Source: an uncultured Clostridia bacterium
Lineage (GTDB): Bacteria; Bacillota; Clostridia; Christensenellales; Borkfalkiaceae
Length of the DNA stretch: 49,971 nt
Assembly: GCA_947631465.1 (NCBI GenBank)
Contig: CANRLK010000008.1
Span: 1 to 49,971 of the forward strand
Reading direction: 5' to 3'
The notes beneath the pieces are model-generated. The model had not been told where the DNA came from and ran no database searches. It saw nothing but the letters and a program-made list of their open reading frames with translations. Position 1 is the stretch's first letter, and each line of letters opens with the position of its first letter. Shown here in pieces: positions 9,324 to 36,566 of this stretch. Both the position numbers and the translations under genes were made by a program.

Positions 9324-12300
9324 ATGAAAAAACTAATGACTTCAACCATCATCGTGCTGCCGCTCTTGATCCTCGCGATCATGCTCGTGAGCGGCGCGAT
9401 CATGAGCCTGATCACGCATATCTACGTCGAAAACGTCGAGTTCGTCCAAAACGACACGCTCGTGCTCGTCATGGAAAACGAATCGCTTCCGCCGAGCGAA
9501 CAGCTTCTCGTCAACGTCTTTCCGCTCAAAGCGGACAACCGCGACGTTTTCTATACGGTCGGGGACGAGTCCATCGCCGCCGTGGATGAAAACGGGGTCG
9601 TGACGGCAAAATTCTACGGCGAGACGTATATCACCGTCACGAGCGTGGAGAACAAGGCGGCGAGCGCACAGCGCAAGCTCATCATCACCGACAAGTCGGT
9701 GCATAAGATCGTCCTCGGCAGCGGGATCAAGACCGAAATGTACGAGGGCGAAACCCAATCGCTCTCGGTCAGCATCTATCCGCAGGAAGCGGAAAACCGC
9801 CTCATCCATTGGCAAAGCTCGGATGAGCGCATTCTCCATGTCGGCGAAAACGGCGTCATTCAGTCGGTCGGCGCGGGCAAGGCGACGGTCACCGCGATCT
9901 CGGACGACAACGAACAGGTCACCGACGGCATCGAGATCATGTGCTATAAGCAGGTAACGGGCGTTTCGTTCGACAAGTCCGTCGTCGTCACGTCGCTTGA
10001 TTCGAGCGTCTTCCCCGAAGTGAAACCCGTGCCCTCGGACGCGTTTGTCAAACTCGCCTATTCGAGCGGCGACGACAAGATCGCTTCGGTCGATCAAACG
10101 GGCAAGATCACCTTCCACAAGGCGGGCAAGGTGAAGATCTACGTCCATGCGACCGACTTCGGCGGCAAGATCATCGACGCTGCCAAGGAATACATCTCGA
10201 CGAACGGCTATTTTATCCCGCCGCTCTTTACGGTCAAGGACTATTCGGTCGACTATGACGACTACGGAACGGAAACGCCGCTTCCCGTCGAGTTTACGAT
10301 CGCGCCCGACGGGGCGTATCGGAAGGTCACGAGCATCGTCTGCGACCCCGCAGACCAGCTCGCCTTCGATGAATCGGCCATGACCTTCCGCTTTGCCAAG
10401 GAAATGCCCGTCGGCAAGACCTACGTCGACGTTATCGTGCATGCGACCGTCTACGACGCGGAAACCCACGACGTGACCGAAAAATATGAGGACAAATTCC
10501 GCGTCAACGTCTCGCGCGACGCGACAAACGTCGAGGCAAGTTATAACGGCACGGTCGCCGCCAATATTCAGACGAAACTCGACCGTCTGACCTTCACGAC
10601 GCTCAAAAGCGCCGAAGCGACGCTTGTCAACGTCTTAGTCTATCCCGAAAACCATACCAACACCATAAAGTATGAACTCATCGACGGGGAAAATATTGCC
10701 AAGATCGAAAACGGCGCGCTGTCGTTCTCGAAAGAAGGGACGGCGAAGGTCAAGATCAGTCTTTTGAACGCAAAGGGCGAGGAAACGGCGGCAATGGAGC
10801 TTTCCGTCACTTATACGCCGCCTGAACCCGGTGACGTCGAGGTCAAAGTACAAGAGCAGGGAAGTATCGTCCAAACCTCTCTCAACATTTTCGGGGAAGG
10901 CGAAAGCGCAAAGGACTCGGGCGTGATTTATTTCACAAAGCCCGCAGATACCGACGTCGAATATGCAGTCACGAAGGGGCAGGACATTGTCAAGCTCATC
11001 AAGCCCGAAGGCGAAGAGGGGAACTATAAGATCGAACCCTTGAAGGGCGGATTTGCGGAAGTGCAAATTACCGCGACGCAGAATACGCCGTCGGGATTGA
11101 TGCTTGCAGCGAGCGGGGAGCGCGTTTGGACGATTCAAGTGTATGTCGATCTCCCCGTCAAAGCCGAGGACTTCGAGATCACGTTCAATGGTCAGCCTTG
11201 CGCAAATACCTTCCGCACGAGCCTTGCAAAGGTGGGGTATCATGTTGAGCTTAAAGATCGCAATGGGTCATCGGAAGGGAAGGAACTGACCGTCACGCTT
11301 GCGAACAGCAGCGAAAAGGTCGGCGGGCACAGCCATTCGGGCGAAGTGATCTTCACGACGAGCGACGAGATCGCCTTCATGTTCGGCGTTTCCTATACCG
11401 ATCAAGTGCCAGAACAGCACAGAAAGGAAGGCGTGGGACTTGCCAGCGTGTCCCGCTCCGTCTCCACGACCCGCGGCAAGCTCGACGAAGCTCCCAAAAT
11501 CAAAAACGGCGAGCAAGAAATCGGCCTCGAAGAGCATTTGACCTTCGGGAACATCGGGGACACGATCACCTTGAAGGTCGAAGGACCTTATCATCCGTCC
11601 GACTTCGTGCTCCAAGATAATCTTCCGACGATTGTCGGGAATGAGTGTGTCACGGTGAAAGTCTCCGAGGACGGGACGATCACGCTCACGAGCACCGATC
11701 TTTGCGAAAATAAGGATATGATCCTCACGGTCGGCGGGGTGACGTTTAAGCTCATCGTTACGGTTCAGGCAAAGGCGGACAGGATTGCCGTCGTCTGCTG
11801 CGATCAAACGCTCGAAGAGGGGAAAACCTATCAGACCCTTTTGTCAAAGCTCACCTTCACGGTGACGATCGGAAGAGAGGACGGGAAAGATCCCACGAAT
11901 CCCAATGTTGAGTATCGAATCGGCGAGGAGGGCGCGTGGACGCTTGCCGTGTTGGTTGACGGAAAGATCACGCTTGAAATCAAAGACGGCGAAAGCACGA
12001 TTTACTTCCGTTCACAAGATGAGGGCGCAGACATCGATCTTAAATTCTCGAAAGTTAAACCCGATGATTTTGGGCTTCAGGTCAGCTATGTCGACGCGAA
12101 AGGGAATGAAGTCGTCATTGAGAAGATCGAGAGCGCGAAAGATGCGAAGCTTCGCACCTACGTCTTGCCCGCAGTCATTCAAAACCGCTTGCTCATGAAG
12201 GTCCTCTTGAATGAGGACTACCTCGGAAAATTCGGAACGGATGCCGATGATGACTTTAAGAACCTCTTTACGACCGAATTTGACGAAGAGAAGGACATCA

Positions 12301-29704: not shown

Positions 29705-29727
29705 AATGAAAAAAGTTCACAAAAAAT

Positions 29728-29759
29728 GAAAAAGGCGGCATGTGGGTTGCCGCCTTTTT
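29728..29759. terminator. bidirectional terminator after the recombinase
   Basis: AAAAAGGCGGC pairs with GCCGCCTTTTT around ATGTGGGTT. The flanking A and T runs let it end transcripts from either side, including the leftward promoter at 29802-29830. Confidence 0.9.
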
Positions 29760-29760
29760 C

Positions 29761-29790
29761 AGTACATAGAATAAGCTATTCTATGTACTT
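29761..29790. repeat. left inverted recombination-like site (IR-L)
   Basis: Two inverted arms AGTACATAGAATA and TATTCTATGTACT surround an asymmetric centre. The 15-base core AGAATAAGCTATTCT (29768-29782) is an exact reverse complement of the core at 29928-29942, so the two sites are in opposite orientation. Arms of about 11 bases and a 7-base spacer (TAAGCTA) fit a tyrosine-recombinase site. Confidence 0.75.
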
Positions 29791-29801
29791 AGACACAATC
29801 T

Positions 29802-29830
29802 ATTTTACATCATTTTATGTAGGAAGTCAA
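29802..29830 (-). promoter_or_regulatory. sigma-A promoter inside the invertible segment, now facing left
   Basis: Minus strand TTGACT (29830-29825), exactly 17 bases, TAAAAT (29807-29802). In the present orientation it drives transcription towards IR-L and the recombinase terminator. Inversion between the two sites would turn it toward the prepilin operon at 30007. Confidence 0.8.
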
Positions 29831-29927
29831 GGAATAAACGCGATTTAACGAAAAAAATAAAAGATTTTCTGTGAAATTTTTTGTCATACAATAGATTTTA
29901 TGTTCTTTTCGGGTCGAAAAGTGACGC

Positions 29928-29949
29928 AGAATAGCTTATTCTCTGTACT
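29928..29949. repeat. right inverted recombination-like site (IR-R)
   Basis: Reverse complement of the left 22 bases of IR-L with a single mismatch (29761-29782 against 29928-29949). The far arm (GTGACGC) is degenerate. A further half-site AAGTACACAGA lies at 29964-29974. Confidence 0.75.
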
Positions 29950-30006
29950 TAAATTCGGCATGAAAGTACACAGAAAAAAACATTCACAAAGCCACGGAGG
30001 GGAAAA

Positions 30007-33000
30007 ATGACGCTTCAAAAACATCGTAAAACAAGACGCGGTTTTTCTTTGGCGGAGCTTCTTATCGTCGTCGCCATCATCGGGGTCCTTGCGGGGATTG
30101 CCTTCGTGTTTATCAATCCCAAGGACATTGATTATGTGGAATACAACCGCAGTGCGGAAGCCATTGCGACAGCCGTGCAAAACCGCCTTACGGAGATCCG
30201 CAACACGGGCGATATGTCAACCCTTCGCGCCCTCGGTGAACAGCTGACGGGATCCGAGTCTATGACGTCCATGGCAGAGAGCACCGACGCGGAAGCAAAG
30301 AAGGGCGGCTATCGCTATCTCTTCAATTATTCGAAGGATGCGAGTGGAACGATTACGAAGAACACTCTGATGAGTTACATCCTTCCCTTCGGTGCGATCG
30401 ATCCCGACATTGCCGACGGGTATTTTGCGGTCATTTTCCAATCGGACACGGGGATGTGTCAAGAAGTGTTCTATTCTCCTAACGAGTTTGAAACTTGCAC
30501 GGTGGATTATCTTTTAACTTTAAGAGGCAACGAAAATGCAGATAAGCGCAAGAAGGCTAATGTCGGCTATTATTTGGGTGAGGCGGACGATCAAGAGATC
30601 GCCTTTGCGAACCTTCCCACGCCGCAGCTCACGATCACGAACTATGAGGAGCTTGTGCTTCAAATCAAAATTCCGAAAGTCAAGCAGCTCGCGGACAAAA
30701 AGCTCGGTCTTCTCATTTCTTTGACTGACAAGGGCGGCGAGGCATTCTCTAAAGAAAAATTATCTCTTACGCAAACTGCGATCTATTCTACCTTCCCGCT
30801 CGGGGATAGTTTGACGGGCGTCGGGAAACCCGTCATTTTGTCAGAACCCCAAAATCAAGAAATCGTTACGGATTCGACGTATACCATGATCTTGGATACG
30901 GTAAAAACGTGTGACACGGTCGATTCGAATGTAGCGCTCGCAAAGACTCCTACGGACAAATTCGAAAATTGGGCGATGCGTTCGGATGCGACAGCAAGGG
31001 AAGGCGATAAAGACAAACCTTTCCAGCTCGGCGATAATTCGGTCATTACGGTCACCGTTTATTGCTTGTACAACGAGAACGACAAGAATTACAGTCAAGA
31101 TTTCCCCGTCGATCCGACCTTCCTGCCGCGTTCGGCGTCTTTGACGTTCAACGGCTGGTTCAATAATTACAACGATAAAACGGTTGAGATTGCTTGCGGG
31201 CGGCATTTGCAAAATCTCAACAATTTGACGGAATTGAGACCGAACCTGGAAAGTTATTTGCCCGAAGTGACGGAAAAGGACGGCAATTATACGTATGGCG
31301 ATCACAACTACGGGATGGCGCATGCTTATACCAACGGTACAAGTGATGGGGATCCCACGGTCAGCTCCGATGACATCGATGAAAAGTACGACAGAAAGGG
31401 TTATGTCAAGAGGATCGAGAAAGCGAAGCAGATCAACGCGATCGACTTCGACAACGACGGCTGGAAAGAGAAGGGACAGCAGATTCTCTTTACGCCCGTC
31501 AATCTTCCGAAGGATTTTTACTACTACGGCAACTATTTGACGATCAGTCATTTGAAAGTCGACGCTCCGTTCTATGCGGGGCTGTTCGGCTATGTATACC
31601 ATGTGCGGCTGTATGATATTTTGCTTGTCAATCCTTCCGTGAAAAGCCAAATGACCGCACATTTTTCGGAGCTCTACGAAATGGGCGTGGGCGCGCTCAT
31701 CGGCACTTCCCGCGATTCTTCTCACATCAATAACTGCCAAGTTTATATGACGCAGGAAAACGGGAAATACGATCCCGAAAAATACCGCGTAACGGGCGAG
31801 TGCTATGTCGGCGGGCTCATCGGGTTCTGCGAAGATGAGCACATCGAGAACTGCTCCGCATCCGTCTACACGGGCTATCAAAAGGACGCAAAGAGGGAGG
31901 ACGGCAGCGACATTTCTTCGCGCTATGTCGGCGGGCTCATCGGGTGTATCACGGGCGACAGCAAGCTCGAAAACTGCTATGCGGCGGGGAATCTCTCGGG
32001 CGAATATGTCGGCGGGCTTGTCGGTTTCATCAAAGAGGACAGCGACCCCTCGGGCGATGATTATCGGATCGAGAGCTGCTATACGGCGGGACATATCGAG
32101 TATGCTACGGTCGAGGCAGCGGGGATTTTGGGACGCATTTACGAGCTTGCGGGCAATGCCAAGGGAGCTGTCAGCGTCTACGGAAACTATTGCGTCGTCA
32201 TCTACGGCACGGAAAGCGGCAAGACCGCAGTCGGAACGCCAAATTACAGGTGGGACTGCAAGACGAAAGATGGAGAGACTGTTCCCATCTACGGTACGTT
32301 CAAGGGCGACGGCTTCGAATGGATCAGCACCGACGATATGGGTTTCAGCGACGTATATCTTACGGGAAGATACGGCGATGACACGTTCTTTGCGGGTGCG
32401 GTCTTTAAGAACGACAATAAGAATTATTACATCGCACAAAAGGGCATCTACTATTCGAACAGTCCGTATTTTACCGCATTGAATGATGAAGTCGAAGATC
32501 TTCTGACGAAGATCCAAGGCGACGCGACAAGTAAAAATTTGTCGACGGATATTGCAAACGCGAAAGATAAAGTCTTTTGGCTCAAAAAACTTGAAACGCT
32601 GGAAGAGCTCAAACGGATGATGGAAGAGATCATCTACGAAGTCGACAACGAAACGGGCAAGGATGCAGAGGGGATTCCCTATAACGAAGGCGGTTACGGC
32701 GACTATGAAACGAAAGAAATTGAGGTGGATGGAAAAAAGGTTACAGTAGAAGATACAGAAAAGAGTAAATATACCAAAGATTTGTATCTTGTGACCAAAA
32801 GAGCAAAGATCGAACAAGATGAAGATACAAGTGAGGGGACTGTAAAGTTAACGGTTGTGCAAGCGATCCACGCTATCTATAATAAGAAATATCCTGTAAC
32901 CGAAAACGGCGTGACTACGGAGAAAACCCTTGACGAATTAAACTATGGGGGAAGCGATAGCCAATTTCAAGATACAAACAAATATTTGAACGGCGACTAT

Positions 33001-34710
33001 TCCTTTATGGGCTTTTATAATGCCCTGAAAGAAGCCTATAACGATTTGATAGATGAGAAAACCGATAACGATGACGCGGCGAAGGAAAAAATAAAGTTTC
33101 TTATCGGTGAAGATGACGGAACAAATGGCGGGGAAAATCGGTTTTATGATAGCAGTTTCTTTTATCGGACGTTTTATAACCGCATGCTTTATAGATTGTT
33201 CAACAAGGCGAAGGACTACTATCAATATGGAAAGACGGATAATAACGGCGAGCTGATTTACCGTCATTTCCGTAGCGATCTGGTCGAAGAGAGATTCCGT
33301 GAGACCCTCTGCGATTTGGCGATGTCGAATGACGGGCGCGACGCTTTGCTCGACCAAGCAAAGTATGACGCCTTGGATAAAGTAATCAAGGGGTTGGAAG
33401 ACTACAAGAAAATCATTGCGATTTGGGAAAAAACGGATGATAAAGATTCCGAGGGAAATCCTATCACGCACCCTATGAAAGGTGAAGCTCAAACAGCCAA
33501 AAATGATGTGAAAGCGGCAATCACTGCCGTTACTGCGCTTAGAGATGGAATAAAGACCTGTGACGTGTGCTCTTCGGAACTTGAAACGTTGATCACGGCA
33601 GCGGAAGACGCTTTGGAGACTTTGAGCAAATTATTTGATAGTCATAAATCGAGCAATCAAGAAAAAGATCCAGGCGATTGGGACGCCGTCGATACAAGTG
33701 GTAAAAAGGGCGACATGCGAAAATTGCGCGATACGATCGATTATACCTATCAAAAAACGGTCGCTCTTTGCCGCGCAACGGCAAACTCGGGCGTTGAAAA
33801 CGCGCTCGACGAGCTTACAGTGAAGCTGAAAGAAACGGGTGCCGATCAAAAAACATTGGTAGATGAATTTGCCAAAAACATCAAGACCTATCTCGGCGAT
33901 CGTTGGAATAACAGGGATTCTGGGCACAACATTGAAAACTCCGAACAGCTCCGCAATGCCGCAAGAGGCTATGTAAATGGTATTGATACGGGGAAGGATG
34001 AGGATAGAGATGGTCATCTCGGCTTCATGTACGACTACGGCAACGATCATACAAATAGTAAAGGCGTAGACGAAAACCCCTATACGAACTCTAAGAACCC
34101 CGTTGCGGACAACAGCTATGTCGATAAAGATAACAAGATCTACAACAACGTGTTCCCGTATCACGAGAGCGCTTATACGCATTATTATCCGTTCCCGTTC
34201 GTATTTGGGCTTGAAGTAGAAGGCGATGACATTCCGACGACCTACGTTCTCTTCCATTACGGCGACTGGCTCACGGAAGATCTTTGGGCGGACGAAGAAT
34301 CGATAAAAGTCACAAATATGTTGTATGAAGCGTATACCGATGTGAAAAACGCCGAACAAGTAATGGCGGAGCTTGAAAAGAATAAAGAAAAGATCACTAC
34401 GGAAAATACAAAGGATGAAATTACTACCCTTTATAATGCGGTAAAAACTTGCGTAGAAAGCGTCGAAAAAGCGTTGGCTGCAACGGATCAGAAAGATGCG
34501 CTGAAATCGATCGGCGAGACGATTCAAGGCTGGATCGCCACGGGTGGCGATTTCGAAAAAATCAGTGAAGCGTTCAAAAAAGAGCAAGATAAAGAGACGG
34601 AGCTCACAGAAATCAAAAATAAATTTGAGGAACTTAAAACGACTTTGACGAACCTTGTGAGCGAAATCGATGCAGTCGTCGGGGACAATGTCGCAAAGGA
34701 TGGTGAGTAA
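30007..34710 (+). CDS. giant type IV prepilin-like protein with GLUG repeats
   Basis: A 1567-residue protein beginning with a class III prepilin leader: TRRGFSLAELLIVVAIIG, with cleavage expected after Gly12, Phe at +1 and Glu at +5, then a hydrophobic helix. Residues about 520-720 hold GLUG-type repeats (YVGGLIGFCEDEHIENC, YVGGLIGCITG, YVGGLVGFIKED), which form beta-solenoid-like folds in surface proteins. From about residue 850 the sequence is helical and charged, and the DNA (about 32700-34650) becomes clearly AT-richer. Ordinary pilins have 120-200 residues, so this resembles a pilus-tip adhesin built on a prepilin stem. It is the first gene of a four-prepilin operon. GGAGGGG at 29997 sets ATG 30007. 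Pilus motor and peptidase genes are not in the window. Confidence 0.88.
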   Translation: MTLQKHRKTRRGFSLAELLIVVAIIGVLAGIAFVFINPKDIDYVEYNRSAEAIATAVQNRLTEIRNTGDMSTLRALGEQLTGSESMTSMAESTDAEAKKGGYRYLFNYSKDASGTITKNTLMSYILPFGAIDPDIADGYFAVIFQSDTGMCQEVFYSPNEFETCTVDYLLTLRGNENADKRKKANVGYYLGEADDQEIAFANLPTPQLTITNYEELVLQIKIPKVKQLADKKLGLLISLTDKGGEAFSKEKLSLTQTAIYSTFPLGDSLTGVGKPVILSEPQNQEIVTDSTYTMILDTVKTCDTVDSNVALAKTPTDKFENWAMRSDATAREGDKDKPFQLGDNSVITVTVYCLYNENDKNYSQDFPVDPTFLPRSASLTFNGWFNNYNDKTVEIACGRHLQNLNNLTELRPNLESYLPEVTEKDGNYTYGDHNYGMAHAYTNGTSDGDPTVSSDDIDEKYDRKGYVKRIEKAKQINAIDFDNDGWKEKGQQILFTPVNLPKDFYYYGNYLTISHLKVDAPFYAGLFGYVYHVRLYDILLVNPSVKSQMTAHFSELYEMGVGALIGTSRDSSHINNCQVYMTQENGKYDPEKYRVTGECYVGGLIGFCEDEHIENCSASVYTGYQKDAKREDGSDISSRYVGGLIGCITGDSKLENCYAAGNLSGEYVGGLVGFIKEDSDPSGDDYRIESCYTAGHIEYATVEAAGILGRIYELAGNAKGAVSVYGNYCVVIYGTESGKTAVGTPNYRWDCKTKDGETVPIYGTFKGDGFEWISTDDMGFSDVYLTGRYGDDTFFAGAVFKNDNKNYYIAQKGIYYSNSPYFTALNDEVEDLLTKIQGDATSKNLSTDIANAKDKVFWLKKLETLEELKRMMEEIIYEVDNETGKDAEGIPYNEGGYGDYETKEIEVDGKKVTVEDTEKSKYTKDLYLVTKRAKIEQDEDTSEGTVKLTVVQAIHAIYNKKYPVTENGVTTEKTLDELNYGGSDSQFQDTNKYLNGDYSFMGFYNALKEAYNDLIDEKTDNDDAAKEKIKFLIGEDDGTNGGENRFYDSSFFYRTFYNRMLYRLFNKAKDYYQYGKTDNNGELIYRHFRSDLVEERFRETLCDLAMSNDGRDALLDQAKYDALDKVIKGLEDYKKIIAIWEKTDDKDSEGNPITHPMKGEAQTAKNDVKAAITAVTALRDGIKTCDVCSSELETLITAAEDALETLSKLFDSHKSSNQEKDPGDWDAVDTSGKKGDMRKLRDTIDYTYQKTVALCRATANSGVENALDELTVKLKETGADQKTLVDEFAKNIKTYLGDRWNNRDSGHNIENSEQLRNAARGYVNGIDTGKDEDRDGHLGFMYDYGNDHTNSKGVDENPYTNSKNPVADNSYVDKDNKIYNNVFPYHESAYTHYYPFPFVFGLEVEGDDIPTTYVLFHYGDWLTEDLWADEESIKVTNMLYEAYTDVKNAEQVMAELEKNKEKITTENTKDEITTLYNAVKTCVESVEKALAATDQKDALKSIGETIQGWIATGGDFEKISEAFKKEQDKETELTEIKNKFEELKTTLTNLVSEIDAVVGDNVAKDGE

Positions 34711-34711
34711 T

Positions 34712-35593
34712 GTGAAGCATACGATCAAACAAAAATTCAGACGCGGGGCGTCGATCGCGATCGCGCTGCTCATCTTTCTGCTTTGCGCGCTTGCGGGCGT
34801 CTCCGCGCTCATGATGGCGGCTTCCAACGCAGGACGCTACTCCCATAAGAGCGAACAGGATTATTACTCCGTCTCTTCTGCCGCACTCTATTTCGTGGAC
34901 TTATTCGCAAGTAGTACCTTGACCTATACGTCCAAACAAATAGCGTTCGAGTACAAGCGGGAGTGGACGTTCGACGCCGCTACGGAAGGAAGCGACCCCG
35001 CCAATCAGCACAATTCCACAGACAGCTACAATCTCACGATCCCAACGGAGTCGGGCTCAATGAGCGGCGGGAGTTACACGTTTAGGACGGAAAGTGGAAA
35101 AACAGACGGATTCAAACTTCAAAGCATTATCTGCGGACAGTGCGATAAGATCGTTCCCTATCTCAACATTCCCGACGAATGGTATGCAAGGGTCAAGGAT
35201 AACGAAGGCGATCCGCCGAAAAGACCCGCTGCTCCCGAGCCCGTCACCGATAAATTTACCTTCACCATGAAGGATTATCCTCAATTCGGCACGGTGACAT
35301 GCACCATGCGCATGGAAGCCAACTACGATCTTCTCTTCACCTTTTTAAGCGAGAGCGGCGGATATTCCATTACCCTCTATTGGGTTGCCGAAGTAGATCC
35401 CGCGATCGTGGCGAAAGATCCCGAATACGTTTATGCCGATGTCGACGAAACAAACAACTTTAAGAAGGGATATTTGAGGCAAATTTCCACCTTAATTGTC
35501 ACGGTAAAATGGAGAAAATCCAACATAACCATTTCAAGAGGCGAGACGGTCGATACTTTTACGGAGGGTGAAAAAAATGAAGAAACTGCTTAA
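34712..35593 (+). CDS. PilX-like minor pilin/pseudopilin-like protein
   Basis: A 293-residue protein with a basic N terminus and hydrophobic helix, RRGASIAIALLIFLLCALAG, like PilX/GspK N termini, then a secreted domain. It lacks Glu at +5, as GspK-type tip proteins do. The extracellular part has a Cys pair (ICGQC) and many aromatic residues. Start GTG 34712 is favoured by GGTGAG 5 bases upstream; ATG 34700 is possible. It follows the giant prepilin by one base and overlaps the next gene. Confidence 0.75.
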   Translation: MKHTIKQKFRRGASIAIALLIFLLCALAGVSALMMAASNAGRYSHKSEQDYYSVSSAALYFVDLFASSTLTYTSKQIAFEYKREWTFDAATEGSDPANQHNSTDSYNLTIPTESGSMSGGSYTFRTESGKTDGFKLQSIICGQCDKIVPYLNIPDEWYARVKDNEGDPPKRPAAPEPVTDKFTFTMKDYPQFGTVTCTMRMEANYDLLFTFLSESGGYSITLYWVAEVDPAIVAKDPEYVYADVDETNNFKKGYLRQISTLIVTVKWRKSNITISRGETVDTFTEGEKNEETA

Positions 35594-35909
35594 AAAACTG
35601 AAAAACAAAAAGGGCGAATCATTCGTTGAGATCTTGATCTCCGTGCTCATCGCCGCGTTCGGGTGCTTGCTCATTGCAACGCTCTATTCCGCTGCCATGA
35701 GTTTGAACGTACAGGCTTCCAAAATGGACGACAACTTTTATAAGAGCATTTCCGAAATGGAGCAAATGTTTGACGGACAAGCGCAGATAAATGACGACAA
35801 AGACCATAAAGTCACCGTTACCGAGGATGGTGGAGGAAATCCGTTCGAAGATGGCGTCTATGTTTACGGAGACAAAGACGGGGGAAATTACGCTTACAGG
35901 AGAGACTAA
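35577..35909 (+). CDS. PilV-like minor prepilin
   Basis: A 110-residue prepilin-like protein. KKGESFVEILISVLIAAFG gives the leader and helix; cleavage after Gly13 would leave Glu at +1 and Glu at +5, the first of which is unusual. The soluble part is small and acidic. GGAGGGTGA precedes ATG 35577, which overlaps the previous gene by 17 bases. Third member of the prepilin operon. Confidence 0.75.
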   Translation: MKKLLKKLKNKKGESFVEILISVLIAAFGCLLIATLYSAAMSLNVQASKMDDNFYKSISEMEQMFDGQAQINDDKDHKVTVTEDGGGNPFEDGVYVYGDKDGGNYAYRRD

Positions 35910-36566
35910 ATGAGAAAGTTATTCGGCAGAAAGGGCTTTACGCTTGCCGAGGCGCTCATCGCGACGGCGATTTTGGCGTTGTTCGTCTCTATGGCGATCG
36001 TGGGGACGTCGGGGCTCTTCGGCACGGGCGAGGAAATGATGGCGGTTTCTAAGGCGGCTGTGCTCGGCTCGGACGTGATGAAAGTCATCACCAATGAACT
36101 GCGCTTCGGCGAATCCTTCAAATTTGAAACAAAAGACGCGACAAGCGGCGATTCGATCACATACGACAGCACGACGTACGGCGAAGGAACTTCGATGAAG
36201 ATAAGCGGCGATTCGAAGAGAAAAGGAGAGCTTTTGATCGTTTCCTCGCCGAAAAACTTTGTTGAAACAGGCGCAGAGGACGGAACGGGAAAGTCGGATA
36301 AGAGTTTTTATCCGATCAGTTCTTCCTCGTACGACGAGGTATGGATCAAATCGATTATGTTTACGATCGAGACAAAAGTCGAAAAAGTCAAAGATGAGGA
36401 GAATATAAAGGAAGAAGACAAAAGGAAGCGGCAGGTCATAAGTTGCACGGTTGCGGTTACTTCGGACGGGACAAACACGCTTTGGGAAAAGACGGTGACA
36501 ATCGTTCCGATTTCGCAAAAGACGGAGCTCTTTCTCACGGAATCCGCAACCAATCAAGGTGGCTGA
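35910..36566 (+). CDS. PilW-like prepilin
   Basis: A 218-residue protein with a textbook prepilin start, GRKGFTLAEALIATAILALF: cleavage after Gly9, Phe at +1, Glu at +5. The exported domain is beta-rich and contains a Lys/Glu-rich stretch near residue 165. The start codon directly follows the previous stop, with CAGGAGAG upstream. Last gene of the prepilin operon; a terminator follows. Confidence 0.85.
   Translation: MRKLFGRKGFTLAEALIATAILALFVSMAIVGTSGLFGTGEEMMAVSKAAVLGSDVMKVITNELRFGESFKFETKDATSGDSITYDSTTYGEGTSMKISGDSKRKGELLIVSSPKNFVETGAEDGTGKSDKSFYPISSSSYDEVWIKSIMFTIETKVEKVKDEENIKEEDKRKRQVISCTVAVTSDGTNTLWEKTVTIVPISQKTELFLTESATNQGG

Follow-up and report, generated by a model that had tools for sequence, protein, structure and literature searches.

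The stretch of DNA analysed here (the window: 49,971 nt from an uncultured Clostridia bacterium) contains, in this order, a tyrosine recombinase gene, a terminator-like hairpin, a short segment with a promoter-like sequence between two inverted sites, and a putative operon that begins with a giant prepilin gene (Table 1). In a first-pass annotation, this arrangement had been read as an invertible promoter lying between a tyrosine recombinase gene and a type IV prepilin operon. Both flanking genes were recovered as described, the recombinase immediately 5′ of the element and, 3′ of it, the prepilin gene with its N-terminal methylation motif and a GLUG motif.

Table 1. Positions of the genes and sequence features around the element in the window
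Feature	Position	Strand	Remarks
Tyrosine recombinase, 303 aa	28793..29704	+	Pfam Phage_int_SAM_3 and Phage_integrase, E 2.9e-26 and 2.9e-10
Terminator-like hairpin between recombinase and left site	29727..29761		Stems of 14 pairs (minus strand) and 6 pairs (plus strand)
Left recombination site, GTACATAGAAT-AAGCT-ATTCTATGTAC	29762..29788	+	0 mismatches to family pattern
Putative invertible segment, 133 bp	29789..29921		
Sigma-70-like promoter, TTGACT-17-TAAAAT	29802..29830	-	OFF; directed away from the prepilin gene
Right recombination site, TGACGCAGAAT-AGCTT-ATTCTCTGTAC	29922..29948	+	Core inverted relative to left site; inner arm degenerate
Giant prepilin, 1567 aa, proposed target	30007..34710	+	N_methyl E 8e-7, Glug E 1e-8, IV_pilin_GFxxxE E 2e-6
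307-aa protein, same putative operon	34670..35593	+	No family match
113-aa protein, same putative operon	35568..35909	+	PilV-like match, weak and below cut-off
218-aa minor prepilin, last gene of putative operon	35910..36566	+	N_methyl above cut-off, ComGE-like below cut-off

Recombinase, paired sites and putative prepilin operon

The window recombinase has all six catalytic residues (R142, K184, H247, R250, H273 and Y283), none of which varies among 90 full-length relatives (90 of 90), and the enzyme is predicted to be catalytically complete. Its nearest solved chains were 6en0/6emy, named 'Int protein' (E 5e-16).

The annotation had reported a 22-nt inverted repeat with one mismatch, and in it a 15-nt core matched exactly in reverse complement. 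The core can be read as such from the sequence, and the repeat extends to 26 nt (29757-29782 and 29928-29953, 92% complementary). It surpassed the repeats of all 40 dinucleotide-shuffled versions of the 600 nt 3′ of the recombinase, which, taken with the comparisons described below, excludes chance. The core by itself was not rare when two mismatches were allowed: AGAATARSYTATTCT had four matches in the 1.6-Mb genome, the two exact ones of the window and two with two mismatches (one of them, at C72:130, belonging to a further site pair), and its reversed control had 20 per strand. What had been overlooked is that each repeat is a near-palindromic 27-bp site, in which 11-bp arms flank an asymmetric 5-bp core, with the family consensus GTACATAGAWT-N5-AWTCTATGTAC. 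This full site is rare, with 17 matches in the same genome versus none in the reversed control at up to three mismatches. Of the inner arm of the right site, TGACGCAGAAT, 7 of 11 positions agree with the consensus. The left and right cores are the same core inverted, as expected from the opposite direction that had been assigned to the two site centres, and the element has the general form of an inverton, inverted repeats around a short segment.

The promoter that had been placed between the sites was found there by its match to consensus, and would be OFF in this assembly. The hairpin, previously called a bidirectional terminator, is terminator-like when read from either strand. Over the whole region neither promoter-like sites (3 found versus 2.2 expected) nor terminator-like sites (2 versus 3.9) were in excess. 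Calculated from the centres of the two sites (29775 and 29935), the promoter of the inverted state would lie on the plus strand at 29880-29908 (−35 at 29880-29885, −10 at 29903-29908), and the start once predicted near 29915 agrees with this, 92 nt 5′ of the ATG at 30007. The prepilin leader also contains a degenerate third site-like sequence, GTACACAGAAA-AAAAC-ATTCACAAAGC at 29964-29990, which could pair with the right site as a hairpin.

A type IV prepilin operon as the target also appears sound. Three smaller genes, at least one of them a predicted prepilin, follow the giant prepilin. In the giant prepilin a class III signal or N-terminal methylation motif is joined to a large extra part, the build of a modular type IV pilin. 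It is alike in this to PilB of Streptococcus sanguinis, a Gram-positive pilin with a small N-terminal pilin part and a large extra part, and its 1567 aa compare with the 860 residues of the most extreme modular pilin named in PMC8179133. Elsewhere in the genome, a second giant prepilin (1278 aa) is accompanied by two small prepilins (C5:3694-8716), and no sites were found nearby.

Site pairs and promoter orientation at related recombinase loci

Homologues of the recombinase (E ≤ 1e-20) were present in 50 of 101 genus genomes. The first set, drawn from named genomes (mainly rabbit-gut and ruminant-gut Clostridia assemblies) and with the window counted in, comprised 57 loci. An inverted repeat of at least 14 nt was found within 600 nt at 37 of them, 34 of which beat all 40 shuffles, and none at the other 20. 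Pooling of both locus sources gave 106 recombinase ends, or 96 after duplicates were dropped.

At these 96 loci, 52 site pairs 3′ of the recombinase were picked on their arms alone. The cores were identical in the inverted sense in 42 of the 52 and in the direct sense in none, and with shuffled partners the inverted matches averaged 2.26 with a maximum of 12 in 10,000; some pairs come from close relatives, so these are not 52 independent cases. In the smaller first set, matched cores were found in 29 of 34 pairs, and 22 different left cores were represented. Tyrosine recombinases need shared crossover cores for strand exchange, and cores that are shared within a locus yet differ between loci fit this requirement. 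No matched pair was found within 800 nt at 46 of the 96 loci, 11 of which are cut by contig ends; the 35 uncut ones suggest that the arrangement is not universal, or that the arms differ there, as in Pumilibacter. In Pumilibacter intestinalis and P. muris (L077/L086), cultured mouse-gut species with a recombinase 53% identical to that of the window, a perfect 19-nt inverted repeat with arms other than those of the family lies 3′ of the recombinase, at distances of 54-72 and 200-218 nt.

A promoter with a TTG-type −35 could be called in one direction in 45 of 50 matched pairs, compared with a mean of 5.65 and a maximum of 10 in shuffled segments; 35 pointed away from the next gene (OFF), 10 towards it (ON) and 5 were unclear. 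Under a stricter score 38 of the 50 were called (31 OFF, 7 ON) versus 1.5 in shuffles, and both orientations are present in the family of loci. Moreover, one ON segment (L088) aligned with those of L035, L076 and the window only if flipped, scoring 31.5, 31.0 and 22.5 as compared with 7.0, 1.5 and 1.3 unflipped and with at most 21.0 in 400 shuffled comparisons. L088 precedes a giant prepilin different from that of the window.

The annotation had proposed that orientation be compared in relatives, and held that a single orientation in all relatives retaining both genes would speak against inversion. Across the family both states were seen, whereas among strict giant-prepilin orthologues all five loci with a site pair (the window, L006/L035, L037, L041 and L076) were OFF and none ON, although the sample is small, with a single assembly for each species; formally, this is the single orientation that had been named. 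A further orthologue locus, L039, has no site pair. The all-OFF orthologues are evidence against a frequent ON state at the window locus, or else each assembly records one majority state. Because of these five OFF loci, the claim for the window locus rests on the family.

We searched the first ORFs behind 18 of the relatives' switches against Pfam, and 5 had no match. Giant prepilins with GLUG and/or N_methyl matches stood at L035, L037, L041 and L076; other switches precede LRR_5, MBG_3 and Listeria-Bacteroides repeat proteins, an ABC transporter, a Band_7/zinc-ribbon protein, a helicase with nine HA repeats, an N6_N4 DNA methylase and a C5 DNA methylase. This variety implies that recombinase plus switch is a portable module. 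The switch at L071 precedes the helicase (ResIII, nine HA repeats) and is ON, those at L075 and L079 precede the N6_N4 and C5 methylases and are both OFF, and phase-variable restriction or methylation is possible at these three loci.

Sites and recombinase also go together between genomes: sites were present in 28 of 50 genus genomes with the recombinase versus 1 of 51 without it (Fisher p 2.6e-10), an association that is partly linkage, because many sites adjoin the recombinase. Over 46 loci the recombinase covaried with the adjoining site arms (Mantel r 0.57, reached in 0 of 5000 permutations), which shared descent or linked inheritance could also cause.

Dispersed probable switches ahead of pilin genes

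When the genome of the window was scanned with the 27-bp pattern at up to three mismatches, the 17 sites consisted of seven intact pairs, 137 bp apart (on contigs C6, C7, C18, C24, C33, C71 and C72), the left site of the window, and single sites near the contig ends of C45 and C74. Together with the window pair, the intact pairs are spread over 8 contigs, as the sites of an Mpi-like global invertase regulon are dispersed. We counted 13 N_methyl matches (E ≤ 0.01) in this genome, 12 above cut-off, 8 of them in short pilins, and pilB/pilT-like ATPases are encoded on C34. Six of the 8 short pilins (C33, C72, C71, C7, C24 and C18) begin right after a site pair; of the other two, that on C74 is cut by the contig end and that on C34, beside the pilus machinery, has no sites. 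The switch-fronted short pilins are near-identical over their first ~35 residues and hypervariable in the remainder.

The copy on C33 is ON, and those on C72, C71, C7, C24, C18 and C6 are OFF, as are the promoter halves on C45 and C74. Compared with the six other intact copies, the 110-bp segment of C33 was identical at 89-107 of 110 positions when flipped and at 38-43 of 110 when not. Computed inversion of the sites of C71, C7, C24, C18 or C6, which are all five of the copies with core AGTCT, gave the two sites of C33 exactly over 54 bases, the outer arms and flanks being retained and the inner arms swapped. Thus, the sites of C33 are those of a reciprocal exchange inside the site. The core AAGCT/AGCTT is common to the window and C72, and the other pilin switches of this genome have AGTCT/AGACT. 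On C74 (L135:35-200) the left site of the OFF half is damaged and shortened to GTATCCATGTAC, perhaps a locked copy.

Sites with at most two mismatches occurred in 29 of 101 genus genomes (none in the control). When at most one mismatch was allowed, 17 of 301 family genomes had sites, and these represent 5 of 18 genera. Among 46 pilin-related stretches from 13 genomes, an intact matched pair stood ahead of a pilin in 25, of which 20 were OFF and 5 ON (G000:C33, where G000 is the genome of the window, G025:C1a, G060:C71, G038:C1 and G077:C86, the promoters of the last two being weaker); 3 had a pair with no pilin in reach, and 18 had no pair, several being cut by contig ends. G036:C49 starts inside the segment and reads ON, and by eye its pilin and the ON pilin of C33 resemble the same cysteine-rich variant. 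In none of these genomes was more than one of the intact pilin pairs ON, but mutual exclusion of the pilins is not claimed, since independent switching would give the same with a chance of ~1/3 by a rough hand estimate. With one recombinase homologue (E ≤ 1e-20) and five dispersed site pairs, four ahead of short pilins and one ahead of a longer prepilin frame cut by the edge of the stretch, genome G025 suggests action in trans. In G144:C51, two site pairs with the same core stand in mirror order ~10.8 kb apart (773-937 and 11576-11740), and could also invert the stretch between them.

At eight loci of the window's genome (L128, L129, L130, L131, L132, L133, L135 and L243) and in relatives, the pilin stop codon is closely followed by a ~110-nt structured RNA-like element that contains the motif CGACAGGGATGTAAGG. 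The motif had 38 matches (at most one mismatch) in 13 of 101 genus genomes versus 4 in the reversed control, and the exact motif occurred in 4 of 301 family genomes, all of the same genus as the window. All 25 of the pilins that have an intact pair are followed by the element, some of these loci having been fetched by CGACAGGGATGTAAGG itself. In 35 copies, 80.7% of the cells of the helix around the motif pair, and covariation was 0.449 versus 0.225, above 500 of 500 shuffles, and 0.300 when the helix was slid by −1. Pairs changed on both sides and the number of pair types were not above shuffles in these 35 copies, the RNAalifold consensus fold was weak (−1.3 kcal/mol), and Rfam gave no match at gathering score and only chance-level matches at E ≤ 1.

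Proposed switch, alternatives and significance

Matched inverted cores in 42 of 52 pairs, both orientations in the family and the flipped copy on C33 largely support the invertible-promoter reading of the annotation. We conclude that 29762-29948 is very probably an invertible promoter element, whose segment is flipped by a tyrosine recombinase, most likely the adjacent one, and which switches the giant prepilin operon, is OFF in this assembly and belongs to a family of such switches. In the proposed mechanism, a simple tyrosine recombinase, most likely the product of the adjacent gene, would bring the two 27-bp sites together, strands would be exchanged within the shared 5-bp core, and the 133-bp segment would be inverted because the cores are inverted. 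In the sequenced state the promoter would fire at the terminator (OFF); in the flipped state the giant prepilin operon would be transcribed with a 92-nt leader (ON). The element would belong to a family that comprises seven or more other site pairs, of which six lie immediately 5′ of short type IV pilin genes, and through which a cell or its descendants could display different pilins. That the window element itself flips is what we infer, and the direct support comes from other loci of the family. Transcription would presumably follow the orientation of the promoter, and the benefit of the switches would be surface variation.

Near-palindromic sites also resemble operators, and the pair might instead be bound by a regulator that loops the DNA between them. 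Such operators have no need of a shared asymmetric inverted core, yet this recurs in most pairs despite the 22 left cores of the smaller set, and the segment exists in both orientations with its arms swapped exactly as by a crossover inside the site. On the matched inverted cores and the C33 copy we rejected paired operators, and give them only a very slight chance. We consider it just as improbable that the orientation of C33 is an artefact of misjoined near-identical repeats. The pilin switches are indeed near-identical and contigs do break at them (C6, C45, C74 and G036:C49), but the segment and sites of C33 differ individually from each other copy, the arm swap falls within the 27-bp sites exactly as predicted, and ON copies were found in other genomes too (G025:C1a, G060:C71 and G036:C49) and at recombinase-linked loci of other species. 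Contig breaks at or near sites were given little weight as evidence for inversion, as contigs also start shortly 5′ of or inside recombinase genes, and the leaders of the pilins are repeats.

Within the preferred reading of an invertible promoter, it is still unlikely, though less remote than either of these, that the window copy is a degenerate switch locked OFF, hardly or no longer flipping while the family flips. The degenerate inner right arm could slow or lock switching, and the five OFF orthologues agree with this; on the other hand, both the core and the recombinase of the window are intact, the core is matched between the two sites, and many OFF loci of the family have a degenerate inner right arm, which may simply be what the promoter-distal arm normally looks like. 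Somewhat more weight, albeit in a minority of our expectation, goes to real switches flipped by a recombinase other than the adjacent one, as the genome encodes five tyrosine recombinases (the adjacent gene, a paralogue on C15, and those of C7, C31 and C75). The C15 paralogue, 54% identical to the window recombinase, has no site that we found nearby, and groups in a quick tree (98) with genes of G036 and G077 that are orphans likewise; in these two genomes, too, GTTCATRG-type sites precede pilins. The C15 paralogue could serve the AGTCT/AGACT pilin switches. Against this stand the covariation of recombinase and adjoining arms, for which linked inheritance is an alternative cause, and genome G025, in which one homologue with five pairs implies that this recombinase family is able to serve several loci. 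The window element would be flipped by the adjacent recombinase, or else by its C15 paralogue.

The window element would work like known invertible promoters of Clostridioides difficile and Bacteroides, and has their sequence-level features. The RecV-type switches of C. difficile (flagellar, cwpV, cmr and pdcB) likewise combine short inverted repeats around a promoter, a tyrosine recombinase and dispersed surface switches in a clostridium, RecV being required for some switches and not all (PMC5903667, PMC9286219). The switches named there control flagella, a cell-wall protein and signalling genes, whereas the switches in the genome of the window mostly front pilin genes; RecV and the window recombinase are likened by description and not by sequence. 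In Bacteroides fragilis, Tsr19 flips a neighbouring and a distant promoter (PMC4747536), and both Mpi (serine) and Tsr19/BF2766 (tyrosine) act, one recombinase each, on dispersed promoters of alternative surface products; this is another phylum, Mpi is another kind of recombinase, and polysaccharides are varied rather than type IV pilins. Invertons of Clostridia near a tyrosine recombinase are also described for the hCom2 community, in which inverton group 139 goes with tyrosine recombinase group 35 (PMC11892184). Here, too, the comparison is by description only, and the text of that study contains neither the word pilus nor pili. In Moraxella, DNA inversion selects the type IV pilin that is made (PMC11868660); there the pilin genes themselves invert at one locus, whereas here promoters would invert at many loci.

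Gene conversion and inversion of the pilin genes are both established routes to pilin variation. Piv, the enzyme of Moraxella, is not known to be a tyrosine recombinase. Our searches of the open-licence literature showed no report of a dispersed set of type IV pilin genes with a separate invertible promoter for every gene, and such a repertoire is the unusual part of the finding. We lean, with considerable reserve, towards the wider view that these Clostridia have a repertoire of type IV major pilins (~8-9 cassettes in the genome of the window), each with a constant assembly domain and a hypervariable surface domain, a near-identical invertible promoter ahead and a conserved structured RNA behind, which is used via dispersed site-specific inversion. 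Such promoter flipping would be the equivalent of antigenic variation in pilins, and the giant modular prepilin would be under a like switch, as would other genes for surface functions or DNA modification. The recombinase-site family, with matched cores that vary by locus, is a natural set for studying how tyrosine recombinases choose their sites. If the interpretation is true, a gut bacterium, and many related uncultured species, would gain combinatorial control of the pili displayed to mucus, phages and immunity.
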